Below are positions 6,899 to 24,675 of a DNA stretch of 64,000 nucleotides, piece by piece. A program made the position numbers and the translations under genes. Below the pieces are notes generated by a model. It worked only from the letters and a program-made list of their open reading frames with translations, was not told the DNA's origin and ran no database searches. Location of the stretch: assembly GCF_005960665.1 (NCBI RefSeq), contig NZ_CP040676.1:134501-198500 (forward strand), given 5' to 3'. The stretch comes from Exiguobacterium mexicanum (GTDB lineage: Bacteria > Bacillota > Bacilli > Exiguobacteriales > Exiguobacteriaceae). How positions within the stretch are numbered: position 1 is the stretch's first letter; each line of letters opens with the position of its first letter.

Positions 6899-6930
6899 GT
6901 GGTCGTAGACGACCGAATTTCATAATGTTT

Positions 6931-7020
6931 ACCACTAGGGGAGTCGCGTGACGCGGCTGAGATGGACGAGGTCCAGACCCTTTGAACCTGATCTAGTTCA
7001 CGCTAGCGTAGGGAAGTGGG
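6931..7020 (+). ncRNA. TPP riboswitch (THI element)
   Basis: The conserved THI-box blocks appear in order: CTAGGGGAG, GGCTGAGA, ACCCTTTGAACCTGATCT, and GCGTAGGGAAG near the 3' end. It precedes tenA-thiM-thiD-thiE and is followed by a terminator hairpin, so it most likely attenuates transcription when thiamin pyrophosphate is bound. Confidence 0.96.
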
Positions 7021-7055
7021 CGAACCGATTGTTCTCGTACACTTTGTGTAAATCC

Positions 7056-20815: not shown

Positions 20816-21670
20816 ATGAAATTGATTGCCATCGATTTAGACGGGACGTTATTGTCTCGAACTGGTGTCATCACAGAAACGAACCAAGACGCAATCCGGC
20901 GTCGCCAAGCCGAGGGAGATTTGGTCGCCATCTCTTCGGGCCGATCGATTCACGATATCGAAGAGTTGCTGCGACGGAGCAGATTGACTTGTCCAATCTT
21001 GTCCGGGAACGGGGCGATCGCTTTCTATGAGAACGAACGCATTTATTACCACGCGCTCCCGAAAGACGTCGTACAGGAGTTGTGGGATGTGGCCCATGAG
21101 CACGGAGCGTATGTCGAATTTTATACGAATGCCGGGGTGAAAGTACTCCGTTCGGGTACCGATTTACTGAAGGGCGAGTTGGATGAGGTGTTGCCGCACG
21201 ACCAATCGTTCTCACGGGAATGGGGCGAGCGGGAGATTGAAATTCAAAACGAACAGTTCGGGCTGACATATGTTGATGCGATCGAGGACATCGACTTTGA
21301 GGCCGACGAAGTGTACAAAGTCTTTGTCTATTCGTTCGATCGGCGCAAACTGCACGAGCTCCGGAAACTGTATGAGCCTCGGACCGACATTTTGATCACG
21401 ACGGCAGGCTGGACAAAAATCGAGATCGGTCATCCGAATGCGAGCAAAGGGATGGCCTTGACGCAGTTGGCAGAGCATCACGGCATTCCACAAGCGGATA
21501 TTGTGGCCATCGGGGACAATTTGAACGACATCTCGATGTTCGAAGTGGCGGAAACGAGGATTGCGATGGGGAACGCCGTCGATCCGTTGAAAGACATCAG
21601 CACCCATATCACGAAGGATGTTGAGGATGATGGCGTCGCCTATGCGCTCGACCATTATATCGACGACTAA
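20816..21670 (+). CDS. HAD-superfamily (Cof-type, IIB) sugar phosphatase
   Basis: A 284-residue phosphatase with the four HAD motifs: MKLIAIDLDGTLLS (nucleophile Asp), VAISSGRSI (motif II), a lysine near SKGMALTQLAEHHG (motif III) and VAIGDNLNDISMFE (motif IV). The C2B cap insertion fits the YidA/Cof subgroup, which acts on sugar phosphates and flavin or pyridoxal phosphates. AAAGGAG lies nine bases before ATG 20816. The structured non-coding stretch follows directly. Confidence 0.92.
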   Translation: MKLIAIDLDGTLLSRTGVITETNQDAIRRRQAEGDLVAISSGRSIHDIEELLRRSRLTCPILSGNGAIAFYENERIYYHALPKDVVQELWDVAHEHGAYVEFYTNAGVKVLRSGTDLLKGELDEVLPHDQSFSREWGEREIEIQNEQFGLTYVDAIEDIDFEADEVYKVFVYSFDRRKLHELRKLYEPRTDILITTAGWTKIEIGHPNASKGMALTQLAEHHGIPQADIVAIGDNLNDISMFEVAETRIAMGNAVDPLKDISTHITKDVEDDGVAYALDHYIDD

Positions 21671-21724
21671 ATTTTGGAGAAATGGTGAACAGGGATTCGA
21701 TGTCACGTAAAACGGTTAATGTAT

Positions 21725-22230
21725 TAGTGTAGTCCTCATTCAACGTGTTGAGCTGAAAGGGGGCAACGGATGAAACGAAGATTCAATCGTTGTTTGACTG
21801 AGGCCGGCTCGGTGAAACGAGAGACAAGTTGGTTGAAAGACCGGCGGACTAGGTGATCTCCTGATTCAAACTGTCGTCCACCTGACCTCGAGCGAGAGGT
21901 GAGGGGCAGACAAAAAGGATATGTGGGAGGCAAAACGTCTAGGAAGCTCGGTGTTTCAAAACAGGTGGGCATGATGAGGTTCATGATGGATTTCAACCTT
22001 ATTACGTCGAAACGCAGTCATGGCCGTTTTGGAGGCAATGTCTCTGTGTAGGGCCAGATTGATGTTCAGACGAACGAACGCTCCGAAATCGCGTTCTGAA
22101 CCGCGTCCATTTTCTAGCACGTATCGATTGATTGCATGGGACGGTCGGCCGGGAACTTTCTCGGTCGGGTGAAAGTCCGCTCTACTAGAAACGCTCACCG
22201 TTAAGCGCCACAGACGTGGCGCTTTTTCTT
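21725..22230 (+). ncRNA. Candidate large structured non-coding RNA
   Basis: This roughly 500-base stretch has no convincing ORF but many hairpins on the plus strand, and it ends in an intrinsic terminator. Clear helices: 21808-21821 (CTCG/CGAG) nested in 21803-21845 (GCCGG/CCGGC); 21881-21904 (8 of 9 pairs); 22021-22056 (TGGCC/GGCCA); 22064-22101 (GTTCA/TGAAC then GAACGC/GCGTTC); 22105-22142 (GTCCAT/ATGGGAC); 22146-22167 (nine pairs, ACTT loop); 22168-22199 (GGTGA/TCACC). Several loops are GAAA-rich. It does not show the conserved blocks of RNase P RNA, tmRNA, SRP RNA or 6S RNA that I know. The 5' end is not fixed: no good promoter was seen, so it could also be a very long 3' UTR of the HAD gene. 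Confidence 0.55.
22204..22227 (+). terminator. Terminator of the structured RNA
   Basis: GCGCCAC-AGAC-GTGGCGC followed by TTTTT. The T-run is on the plus strand only, which fixes the direction. Confidence 0.9.
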
Positions 22231-22561
22231 ATGGGGCGAACGTGGCGACCCGGTCCGGTTGTTTGCCATCTGCTCGTTCAAACTTCACACGATGGCCGTC
22301 TGCGGCCTGTTCGACCTGAAACGTGTAAGCGGCGTCGGGTTCGTCTTCGAACGTCAAATCATAGACGTAACCGCTTAAGGAAAGGGTACCGTCAATCGAA
22401 TAGGTTTCCGCCGAAATGTTATAATGAGTCGCAAGGTACTGCTCTAAGGCACGTTCGCGTTCCTCAATTTCGGTCGAGTAGCGGACGTAGAGGAAAGTGG
22501 CGAGCGTGATTGTGACGACGAGGGTGAATCGGAGAATCGTCTCCCAGTTTCGTTTTGGCAT
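22229..22561 (-). CDS. Small membrane-anchored protein (DUF3139-like)
   Basis: A 110-residue protein with one N-terminal membrane segment (about residues 9-27), a short helix (TEIEERERALEQYLATHY) and a beta-rich C-terminus (GYVYDLTFEDEPDAAYTFQV). The EDEPD pattern resembles the DUF3139 family. The function is unknown. AAAGGAG precedes the ATG. Its 3' end abuts the terminator of the structured RNA. Confidence 0.65.
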   Translation of the reverse strand: MPKRNWETILRFTLVVTITLATFLYVRYSTEIEERERALEQYLATHYNISAETYSIDGTLSLSGYVYDLTFEDEPDAAYTFQVEQAADGHRVKFERADGKQPDRVATFAP

Positions 22562-22659: not shown

Positions 22660-22821
22660 ATGCCGAAAATATATTGGCTCGGGACGTTCGTGAGCGGATT
22701 GATCCTCATGATGATGGGGGAAACGGGCGCTGTCCCACGTATCGTGCCCTATTTTTTGATGGCGCTTGGCGTGACGGGCTTTCTTGTCCAAGCTTGGTTC
22801 GAACAAAAACGACGCCGCTAA
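22660..22821 (+). CDS. Small two-segment membrane protein
   Basis: A 53-residue ORF, MPKIYWLGTFVSGLILMMMG through QAWFEQKRRR, with two hydrophobic segments and a basic tail. TAGAGGAGTGACGAC gives a good ribosome binding site at the ATG. It ends inside a hairpin shared with the convergent ABC-F gene. No family was recognised. Confidence 0.7.
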   Translation: MPKIYWLGTFVSGLILMMMGETGAVPRIVPYFLMALGVTGFLVQAWFEQKRRR

Positions 22822-22836: not shown

Positions 22837-24675
22837 TTAAATCGATTCGAGCAACTGATTCAACAATGTGTCGATGTCTGCTTGGAGCGCATCGGCTTGT
22901 TGCTGCAACGTCATTAATTCTTTTAAATCGTTCGTCTCACTCATCTGGTGCAGGAGTGCTTGATGTGATGCTTCGAGCTCGGTCAGGCGAGCTTCATCAA
23001 CTGAGGTGTCGCGAGTCGTTTCTTGCTTCGGTTTCACGAGTTTCGGTTTAGGAACGACGACCTCTGCGTTCATTTCATGTTGCCGTTTTTCGAGCGCATA
23101 CGACACGTTTCCCGGGAAATGTGTCGCTGTCCCATCAAGCCAATACGTAATCGGGAACAGCTTGTTCAAGAAGTAGCGATCGTGTGAGACGGCGACGAGC
23201 GTGCCGGTAAAGCGGTCGAGTGCGTCTTCGAGTGCCTCACGCGCTTCGATGTCGAGATGGTTCGTCGGTTCGTCTAACACGAGCACGTTGATGTCCTCGT
23301 GCATGAGGATGGCGAGCATGAGCCGCATCTTCTCACCGCCGCTCAAATCTTTGACCGGTTTGAAGACGCTCGCGCCATAGAAGAGGAACTGGGCCAGCAA
23401 TTGACGGGCCTTCCCTTCATCGACAGCGATGCGGTCACGGAACGCCTCGATGAGCCGATGGGAGTCATCAAAGTCGATGTGTTGGGACAAGTAGCCGATT
23501 TGGGCCCGTTCCGCTCGTCGCACCTCGCCTGTCGCCGGTTCGAGGTGACCCAGCAACACTTTCAACAGGGTCGACTTGCCGCTCCCATTTGGGCCGACGA
23601 TGGCGATGCGTTCGCCATGACCGGCGTAGAACGAGACGTGTTCGAAGACGGTCCGGTCGTAAGTGACCGTCACGTCGGTCGCCTCGAACACATCGCGTCC
23701 GGTCCGCCCCTGAGCTGTGAACTGAATGTCCGGTTGAACGGCCTCGAGTCGTGGTTTTTTGATCGTCTCGATGCGGGCGAGCGCTTTCTCCATCGATTTG
23801 GCGCGCCGATAAAACTTCTCGTTCGGTGGAATGCCTTCGTTCGCCCACTGTCTTAGCTGTCGAATCGTTTCCTTCATCTTCTTGATTTTCTTTTGTTGCT
23901 CCGTATAGGCATGGAATTGATCGAGCAACTTCTTTTCTTTTTGGGCGACGAACGCGCTGTAGTTGCCATCAAAACTAGCCAACTCCCCGTCCTCACATTC
24001 GACGATGCGTGTGGCGACGGCGTCGAGAAACACGCGGTCGTGTGAGACGAGGAGAAGCGTGGACGGACTGTCACGCAGGAATGACTCGAGCCAAGTCATC
24101 GCTTCTAAATCGAGATGGTTCGTCGGTTCGTCGAGGATGAGCAGTTCCGGCTCTTGGAGCAACGCCAAGGCGAGCCCGACTTTGGTCCGTTCTCCGCCGC
24201 TGAGTGTGTCGAATGGGCGGTCGACGAAACTTGTGAGCCGTAATCCATCGATCATCGCATTCACTTTCGAATCGATGGCATAGCCGCCGCCGTTCTCATA
24301 GCGCATCTGCAGGGCGCCGTACGTCTCGAGGAGTGAGTCGATGTCGTCACTTGAGATCATCTGTTCCTCGAGTCGTCGCATCTCGTCACCGAGTCTCGTC
24401 AACTCGGCGAACGCGGTATAGAGTACGTCTCGCCCTGATTTACCGGGATGGGCAGGAATCTGGGCCAAATAGCCAATCGTCAGCCGTTGTTTTCGATAGA
24501 TCGTCCCTTCGTCGGGCGAATCGGCGCCGACGATGAGGTGTAGGAGTGTCGTCTTGCCGCTCCCGTTCCGTCCGACGAGCCCGATTCGCTCGCCTGCGTT
24601 TACCTGAAGATTGGCATCGATTAAGACGGCGTGGCCGCCGAATTGTTTTTGAATATGTTGTAATTCGATTAACAT
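22837..24675 (-). CDS. ABC-F family ribosome-associated ATPase
   Basis: A 612-residue protein with two ATPase domains and no membrane segments. Walker A is GRNGSGKTT near residue 37 and GPNGSGKST near residue 360. The ABC signatures are LSGGERTKVGLALAL and LSGGEKMRLMLAILM, each followed by an LDEPTNHLD Walker B. The linker between the domains (about residues 235-320) is helical and basic (QKKIKKMKETIRQLRQWA, RRAKSMEKALARIE), as in ribosome-protecting ABC-F proteins. The C-terminus is a coiled coil. An attenuator-like leader with an upstream ORF suggests induction by translation inhibitors. An antibiotic-resistance role is inferred, not shown. Confidence 0.9.
   Translation of the reverse strand: MLIELQHIQKQFGGHAVLIDANLQVNAGERIGLVGRNGSGKTTLLHLIVGADSPDEGTIYRKQRLTIGYLAQIPAHPGKSGRDVLYTAFAELTRLGDEMRRLEEQMISSDDIDSLLETYGALQMRYENGGGYAIDSKVNAMIDGLRLTSFVDRPFDTLSGGERTKVGLALALLQEPELLILDEPTNHLDLEAMTWLESFLRDSPSTLLLVSHDRVFLDAVATRIVECEDGELASFDGNYSAFVAQKEKKLLDQFHAYTEQQKKIKKMKETIRQLRQWANEGIPPNEKFYRRAKSMEKALARIETIKKPRLEAVQPDIQFTAQGRTGRDVFEATDVTVTYDRTVFEHVSFYAGHGERIAIVGPNGSGKSTLLKVLLGHLEPATGEVRRAERAQIGYLSQHIDFDDSHRLIEAFRDRIAVDEGKARQLLAQFLFYGASVFKPVKDLSGGEKMRLMLAILMHEDINVLVLDEPTNHLDIEAREALEDALDRFTGTLVAVSHDRYFLNKLFPITYWLDGTATHFPGNVSYALEKRQHEMNAEVVVPKPKLVKPKQETTRDTSVDEARLTELEASHQALLHQMSETNDLKELMTLQQQADALQADIDTLLNQLLESI

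Follow-up and report, generated by a model that had tools for sequence, protein, structure and literature searches.

A candidate gene for a large structured RNA outside the Rfam families at a fixed locus of Exiguobacterium

Introduction

What large structured bacterial RNAs such as OLE, GOLLD and ROOL do is an open question, and the locus described here adds a candidate to them. OLE RNA belongs to a ribonucleoprotein located at the membrane. This RNA (RF01071), of about 600 nt (PMC9723947), has a multi-domain fold and occurs in Gram-positives of extreme habitats; its gene adjoins that of the predicted membrane protein OapA, for which four membrane helices have been reported (PMC11332333). GOLLD and ROOL are large, ornate RNAs without a protein-coding role, described as forming multimers in the shape of homo-oligomeric RNA cages (PMC12286853). 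The raiA-motif RNA (ModT), a structured non-coding RNA conserved in Bacillota, is known from more than 2,500 species according to PMC11706538. Bacterial type B RNase P RNA (RF00011) is also a large structured RNA and carries an AAGUCC block.

The candidate lies in a 64,000-nt window, the whole stretch of DNA that was analysed (C4:134501-198500 of the 2.69 Mb genome of Exiguobacterium mexicanum), and coordinates given below without a contig prefix are counted from its first letter. A first-pass annotation, made from the letters of this DNA, had proposed a large hairpin-rich RNA of no recognised family at 21725-22230 and had compared it with OLE, GOLLD and ROOL. This likeness is confined to size and ornateness; no model of these RNAs matches, and the searches recovered the new RNA from a single genus. 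Among them OLE is the nearest analogue, because its gene, too, has that of a membrane protein as its neighbour in extremophiles, and it is similar in size and multi-domain fold. Nevertheless, RF01071 has no match in the window, either at the gathering threshold or at E-values up to 10; the OLE model also had no match in 38 genomes of the family, a weak result because the control genomes were equally silent. Moreover, neither of the two adjacent proteins (53 and 110 aa) matches a Pfam or NCBIfam family, and 53 residues are too few for the four helices of OapA. The GOLLD and ROOL models likewise have no match at either level, and the new RNA gave no DNA match in phage or plasmid collections. It also has no Rfam model match to the raiA motif and, unlike that motif, was found in a single genus. 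As for RNase P, with whose RNA the new one shares the AAGUCC block, the genome has its own RNase P RNA elsewhere (C4:1246685-1247052, 309.9 bits).

Results

A non-coding stretch outside the Rfam families

No credible gene was seen in the roughly 560 bases between the end of a HAD phosphatase gene (21670) and the end of a convergent gene for a 110-aa protein (22229), which confirms the non-coding stretch of some 500 bases noticed in the first-pass annotation. The conserved element spans 21675-22227 on the plus strand, and its first part, 21675-21728, may be a promoter. The start proposed earlier, 21725, is thus close to the predicted transcript start near 21729, whereas the conserved element as a whole is slightly longer than had been assumed. 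The features of the locus are collected in Table 1.

Table 1. Features of the candidate RNA gene and its immediate neighbours (window coordinates)
Feature	Position	Strand	Remarks
Cof-type HAD-IIB phosphatase gene, directly upstream	20816..21670	+	Pfam PF08282, NCBIfam TIGR00099; alternative in-frame start 20732
5' block	21675..21734	+	no indels across 19 genomes (alignment A5); promoter-like (predicted)
Predicted transcript, ~500 nt	21729..22227	+	first conserved hairpin from 21732; terminator 22203-22224; both ends predicted
5' domain	21732..21818	+	three consecutive hairpins, 21732-21764, 21765-21791, 21792-21818; clade-1 consensus fold (12 sequences), 87-96% of cells paired
Central domain	21821..21957	+	hairpin 21872-21887 / 21898-21912 (helix 11), four pairs changed on both sides
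Central-domain closing helices	21821-21826 / 21952-21957 and 21829-21835 / 21936-21942	+	weaker, 85-86% paired
Closing helix around long arm and 3' domain	21964..22199	+	GGUGGGC 21964-21970 / GCUCACC 22193-22199; 97.6% of cells paired, no double change
Long arm	21973..22107	+	outer 21973-21994 / 22085-22107 (19 pairs, five changed on both sides); inner 22005-22008 / 22069-22072
3' domain	22111..22191	+	19-species alignment and covariance model R1
Intrinsic terminator	22203..22227	+	stem-loop 22203-22224, then T tail
110-aa protein gene, convergent with the RNA	22229..22561	-	no Pfam or NCBIfam match
53-aa protein gene, downstream, same strand as the RNA	22660..22821	+	two hydrophobic segments, conserved basic C-terminus

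A search with the Rfam covariance models returned no family at its own cut-off within the RNA stretch, in agreement with the earlier statement that no known family is recognisable there. When E-values up to 10 were allowed, the sole match in the stretch was a weak one to a Burkholderia sRNA model (20.2 bits against a cut-off of 43), which ends in the terminator; the group I intron, group II intron and RNase P models matched neither at this level nor at the gathering threshold. No description of this RNA was found in the open-licence literature of PubMed Central, and the ncRNA and riboswitch passages of a report on an E. chiriqhucha strain annotated with Prokka and Rfam (PMC5399880) do not mention it. 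Judged from its sequence, the stretch looks like a candidate gene for a structured RNA that lies outside all Rfam families and was previously undescribed.

Distribution within and beyond the genus

The genome set comprised 19 genomes of the genus, divided into clade 1 (12 genomes, including that of the window) and clade 2 (seven genomes, among them E. profundum, E. aestuarii and E. qingdaonense). Identical RNA sequences in Exiguobacterium records put names to twelve of the 18 relatives, a metagenome bin among them. A DNA search recovered the RNA stretch in 12 of the 19, at identities down to about 66%, and in the other seven the RNA was found by reading downstream of the HAD gene, so that all 19 genomes carry it. 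In each of them the element begins 4-10 bases past the HAD stop codon. The 3'-domain covariance model R1, which was built from these same 19 sequences, detected exactly one copy per genome, with scores of 58.7-86 bits.

Outside the genus, R1 had no match in 19 genomes of the sister genus, and in a 398-genome sample of the class, searched with stricter filters, it pointed to no genome beyond the same 19. An exact-pattern search of named genomes gave 13 loci, all of them in Exiguobacterium, and the exact 3'-domain pattern had no match in viral contigs; these two scans relied on one exact pattern, which misses some members of the genus, and therefore cannot exclude distant relatives. Plasmid and phage collections contained no DNA match to the RNA stretch. 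In these searches, the RNA is found only in one Exiguobacterium genus, as drawn by GTDB.

Anatomy of the predicted RNA

In both clades the better-supported helices start after the 5' block. They make up a 5' and a central domain, followed by a long arm, the 3' domain and the terminator. The helix GGUGGGC/GCUCACC, which encloses the long arm and the 3' domain, belongs to clade 1 only and is absent from the clade-2 fold; a long arm laid out in a comparable way is predicted for clade 2. Conservation is highest in the 3' domain. Its CUAG helix (22111-22117 / 22185-22191) reads UUUCUAG/CUAGAAA, and UCUCUAG/CUAGAGA in all seven clade-2 sequences. The corresponding U-A pair is thus replaced by C-G in these seven sequences, probably through a single event, and by U-G in one of the 19, a clade-1 sequence. 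Within the 3' domain, the GGAC/GUCC helix (22139-22142 / 22175-22178) is almost invariant, the 3' hairpin (22145-22154 / 22159-22168) contains compensated pairs, and an internal loop with GG opposite UGNRA is conserved; UGNRA may resemble a T-loop.

The first-pass annotation had singled out three stems of the RNA body. Its stem at 22146-22167 proved to be real and corresponds to the 3' hairpin, with 9/9 pairs in the window, 5-9/9 across 12 species and partial compensation. On the other hand, the two-part stem at 22064-22101 keeps 7-10 of its ten pairs in seven close species but only 2-4 in five divergent ones, and the nested junction at 21803-21845 retains 8-11 of 11 pairs in the seven close species and 6-7 in the five divergent ones. 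Neither is conserved, and long-range pairing is predicted in their place. Another possible pairing, between AUGGUGA (21682-21688) and UCACCGU near the 3' end, would form 6-7 of seven pairs in clade 1, but it shows no double changes and no such 3' strand was seen in clade 2; we did not rely on it.

The plus-strand terminator, proposed earlier at 22204-22227, is well founded: 11 of the 12 clade-1 sequences retain every one of its pairs, and a GCGCC/GGCGC stem also closes the clade-2 sequences. A differing terminator stem, of the CCCCC/GGGGG type, was observed in a metagenome bin, G015 (locus L026, 40-599, minus strand), where 5/8 aligned pairs are kept and the contig ends nearby.

Conservation of the fold

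Folding of the single sequence already exceeds chance (z -3.27; 0/100 shuffles equally stable), which substantiates the hairpin-rich character noted before, and the tests on alignments are stronger. The consensus energy of clade 1 is -225.9, against -155.7 +/- 7.5 for column shuffles, and that of clade 2 is -243.4, against -177.3 +/- 6.9, with z equal to -9.3 or -9.5 (the values of the two clades); for both, 0/100 shuffles reached the observed energy. The fold is also specific to the strand, since the complement folds far worse (-174.5 for clade 1 and -206.6 for clade 2).

As a stricter control, 40 null alignments were simulated along the tree in each of two ways, and the neighbouring HAD gene served as a coding control. 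When substitutions were allowed anywhere, the energies of the RNA were reached by 0/40 nulls, yet the energy of the HAD control was also reached by 0/40. When the variable columns were kept, the RNA stood apart in clade 1 (-225.9 against -150.2 +/- 8.4, 0/40) and in clade 2 (-243.4 against -201.2 +/- 6.8, 0/40), whereas the HAD control was ordinary (-201.4 against -197.0 +/- 5.9, 9/40). Other measures separated the RNA from the control less well. Under the variable-column null, the HAD control too had more doubly changed pairs than any of the 40 simulations, and 4/40 nulls for clade 1, 1/40 for clade 2 and 3/40 for HAD attained the observed percentage of paired cells; under the free-substitution null, the clade-1 count of doubly changed pairs was reached by 7/40. 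Collectively, the secondary structure of the RNA is conserved beyond chance in related genomes, with an ordinary coding control in the stricter null.

Sliding the partners of the predicted pairs had a marked effect, with the proviso that shuffle and slide controls favour structures derived from the same alignment. In clade 1, 93.0% of cells are paired, compared with 39.9-46.8% after sliding, and 73 cells are changed on both sides, compared with at most 25. The corresponding values in clade 2 are 95.4% against 35.5-41.7%, and 28 against at most nine. The number of further pair types is marginally high, being reached by 19/500 shuffles in clade 1 and 24/500 in clade 2. For the 3' domain, 97.9% of cells are paired in the 19 species, against 19.4-49.7% after sliding; however, 326/500 shuffles have at least as many doubly changed pairs as the three seen there, and a slide of +1 equals both this count and its 13 cells. 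In alignment A3 the row of G014 is off by one column at the 5' end, which was scored as broken pairs.

An R-scape-like test applied to each pair found no significant pair in clade 1 (0/105 and 0/156) or in the 19-species 3' domain (0/18). In clade 2, two of the 147 pairs were significant; they join columns 165-268 and 206-222 in alignment A4. Such a small number agrees with the low power expected from few independent lineages, and single pairs are mostly unproven. The conservation among relatives envisaged in the first-pass annotation is therefore found at the level of the element, which occurs in 19/19 genomes with its fold kept, but few individual pairs covary significantly.

A constant block ahead of the first hairpin

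Alignment A5 starts directly past the HAD stop codon, and its first 62 columns are free of indels in the 19 genomes, whereas the RNA body is indel-rich. This block begins with the motif TGGAGAAATSGTGAAC (21675-21690), which shows small departures in G005, G011 and G001, and continues with GGATT (21693-21697), a 9-nt spacer (21700-21708) of constant length and variable sequence, and the motif AAAACGGNTAWTGTAT (21709-21724); a -10-like TAATGT is present at 21717-21722. A sequence model of the block, R2, gives 59.9-76 bits there in the 19 genomes; its matches at other places do not exceed 18 bits, and in the sister genus it reaches no more than 15.7 bits, on partial stretches only. Repeated weak R2 matches at a second place in six genomes fall inside a coding gene and were dismissed as chance.

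Since the block is free of indels and contains a spacer that is constant in length but variable in sequence, we infer that 21675-21728 is a promoter from which transcription would begin near 21729, directly ahead of the first hairpin at 21732. A sigma-70 promoter scan returned nothing in the block. The consensus folds pair parts of it weakly, and in clade 1 its GGATTCGAT could pair with a downstream strand, with a few compensated positions; such pairing would place the block inside the RNA and counts against a promoter.

Neighbouring genes

An orthologue of the HAD gene is present in all 19 genomes. In the sister genus, 3 of 18 genomes searched gave a match at threshold, at 35-36% identity, which is the level of a within-genus paralogue, and the orthologue seems to be missing there. 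The order HAD gene, RNA, 53-aa gene, ABC-F gene is kept in 18/19 genomes, the contig of G015 ending first. The 53-aa gene itself is present in all 18 genomes of the genus whose sequence reaches that far; its product belongs to no Pfam or NCBIfam family and was found in none of 14 sister-genus genomes searched. The convergent 110-aa gene is more variable: among 18 genomes, full-length matches occur in seven, all of clade 1, fragments in three (G010, G012 and G018) and none in eight. These eight are G005 and the clade-2 genomes, one of which gives a chance match of 10 residues to be discounted. Beside the RNA, the 110-aa gene is apparently undergoing loss.

Discussion

Since the fold is kept in close relatives, the stretch probably works as an RNA, and the genus-wide conserved fold together with the negative Rfam search supports the first-pass view of an undescribed large structured RNA. 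What is observed is the conserved fold and its strand, the terminator, a single copy at one fixed place, and in which genomes the RNA occurs or is missing. To explain these observations, we consider it fairly probable that the locus encodes, as a gene of its own, a structured non-coding RNA about 500 nt long that acts in trans, most likely as a ribonucleoprotein scaffold. The RNA would be made from its own promoter, within 21675-21728, starting near 21729; it would fold into tandem domains, end at about 22227 and act in trans as a stable structured RNA. A scaffold is suggested by the conserved helices and internal loops, which are spread across several domains, while a base-pairing antisense role is a possible alternative mode of action. 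A candidate partner is the hydrophobic 53-aa protein, which is conserved along with the RNA.

The main alternative is a structured 3' UTR of the HAD mRNA, either retained or cut off, which would stabilise the mRNA or yield a processed RNA. The block that starts 4-10 bases past the HAD stop codon in every genome leaves no space for a terminator in between, the HAD gene and the RNA occur together in 19/19 genomes, and in clade 1 part of the 5' block (block II) can pair with a strand further downstream, all of which speak for such an arrangement. We nevertheless hold it to be unlikely, though with a tangible chance of being right, for a multi-domain fold of about 500 nt would exceed the needs of an mRNA stabiliser, and the well-supported hairpins of clade 1 start only at 21732. 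A 3' UTR also offers no explanation for a 60-nt block free of indels whose spacer keeps its length but not its sequence, even if the consensus folds do pair parts of this block weakly. Alternatively, the RNA could be a large cis-acting leader, a riboswitch or attenuator, that controls the downstream 53-aa gene via the terminator. Indeed, this gene lies on the same strand in 18/18 genomes and, in eight of them (G005 and the seven of clade 2), starts 26-42 nt past the terminator. In seven clade-1 genomes, however, 419-430 nt separate the two, and the convergent gene for the 110-aa protein lies at full length in this gap. Furthermore, no antiterminator site is common to both clades, and the best partner of the terminator 5' arm exceeds the mean of shuffled arms in 6/19 genomes and the best shuffled arm in 0/19. 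The lack of a shared antiterminator and the intervening gene make a leader decidedly improbable.

The two remaining explanations find still less room. Motifs such as GUGAAAGUCC resemble group II intron pieces and could have pointed to a degenerate intron, a ribozyme or a mobile-element remnant. This likeness was dropped for want of an Rfam match, and such an origin is very improbable in view of the single 3'-domain copy per genome at one fixed site, the selection on structure, and the negative results with plasmid and phage DNA and with the exact pattern in viral contigs. That the stretch is a diverged protein gene or spacer DNA folding by chance is harder still to believe. Minus-strand open frames reach 86 aa, and stop-free stretches extend up to 132 codons in single species, but the latter differ between species, and the lengths of the clade-1 elements (529-572 nt) vary by amounts not divisible by three. 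The coding control also gave no structural signal in the stricter null.

Returning to a trans-acting structured RNA, its possible role can be approached through the comparison with OLE. It is conceivable, but on balance unlikely, that the RNA and the 53-aa protein, which is hydrophobic with a basic tail, together make up a ribonucleoprotein particle at the membrane that is peculiar to one genus, of an origin independent of OLE and OapA and with a comparable role against salt or other ion stress. For a connection between the RNA and saline habitats there is only a lead. The genus may be equivalent to the saline Clade II of PMC10837837, a source that gives E. profundum as the representative of its Clade IIb; assignments beyond this species were made from names and GC content. 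The same source places the freshwater species E. flavidum between its clades, and this species may be among the genus genomes. Strain RW-2, a carrier of the RNA, was obtained from freshwater microbialites and grows in 7% NaCl (PMC3738901). Such a freshwater origin weakens the saline link, which, in addition, rests on one evolutionary split.

The candidate suggests that genus-level RNA genes of such size are still absent from Rfam. Since the RNA is single-copy, keeps a fixed place in 19/19 genomes of the genus and was not found in the sister genus, deletion, complementation and comparison with the sister group would be straightforward.

Further downstream, the ABC-F gene (22837-24675, minus strand) scores 461.2 bits against an NCBIfam cut-off of 380 and appears to be of the ribosomal-protection-like type; in six sister-genus genomes with ABC-F, no match to the 53-aa, 110-aa or BCCT protein was found within 1.5 kb of it. 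Elsewhere in the 64,000-nt window, a TPP riboswitch at 6927-7031 on the plus strand (85.6 bits) is the sole Rfam match at cut-off.
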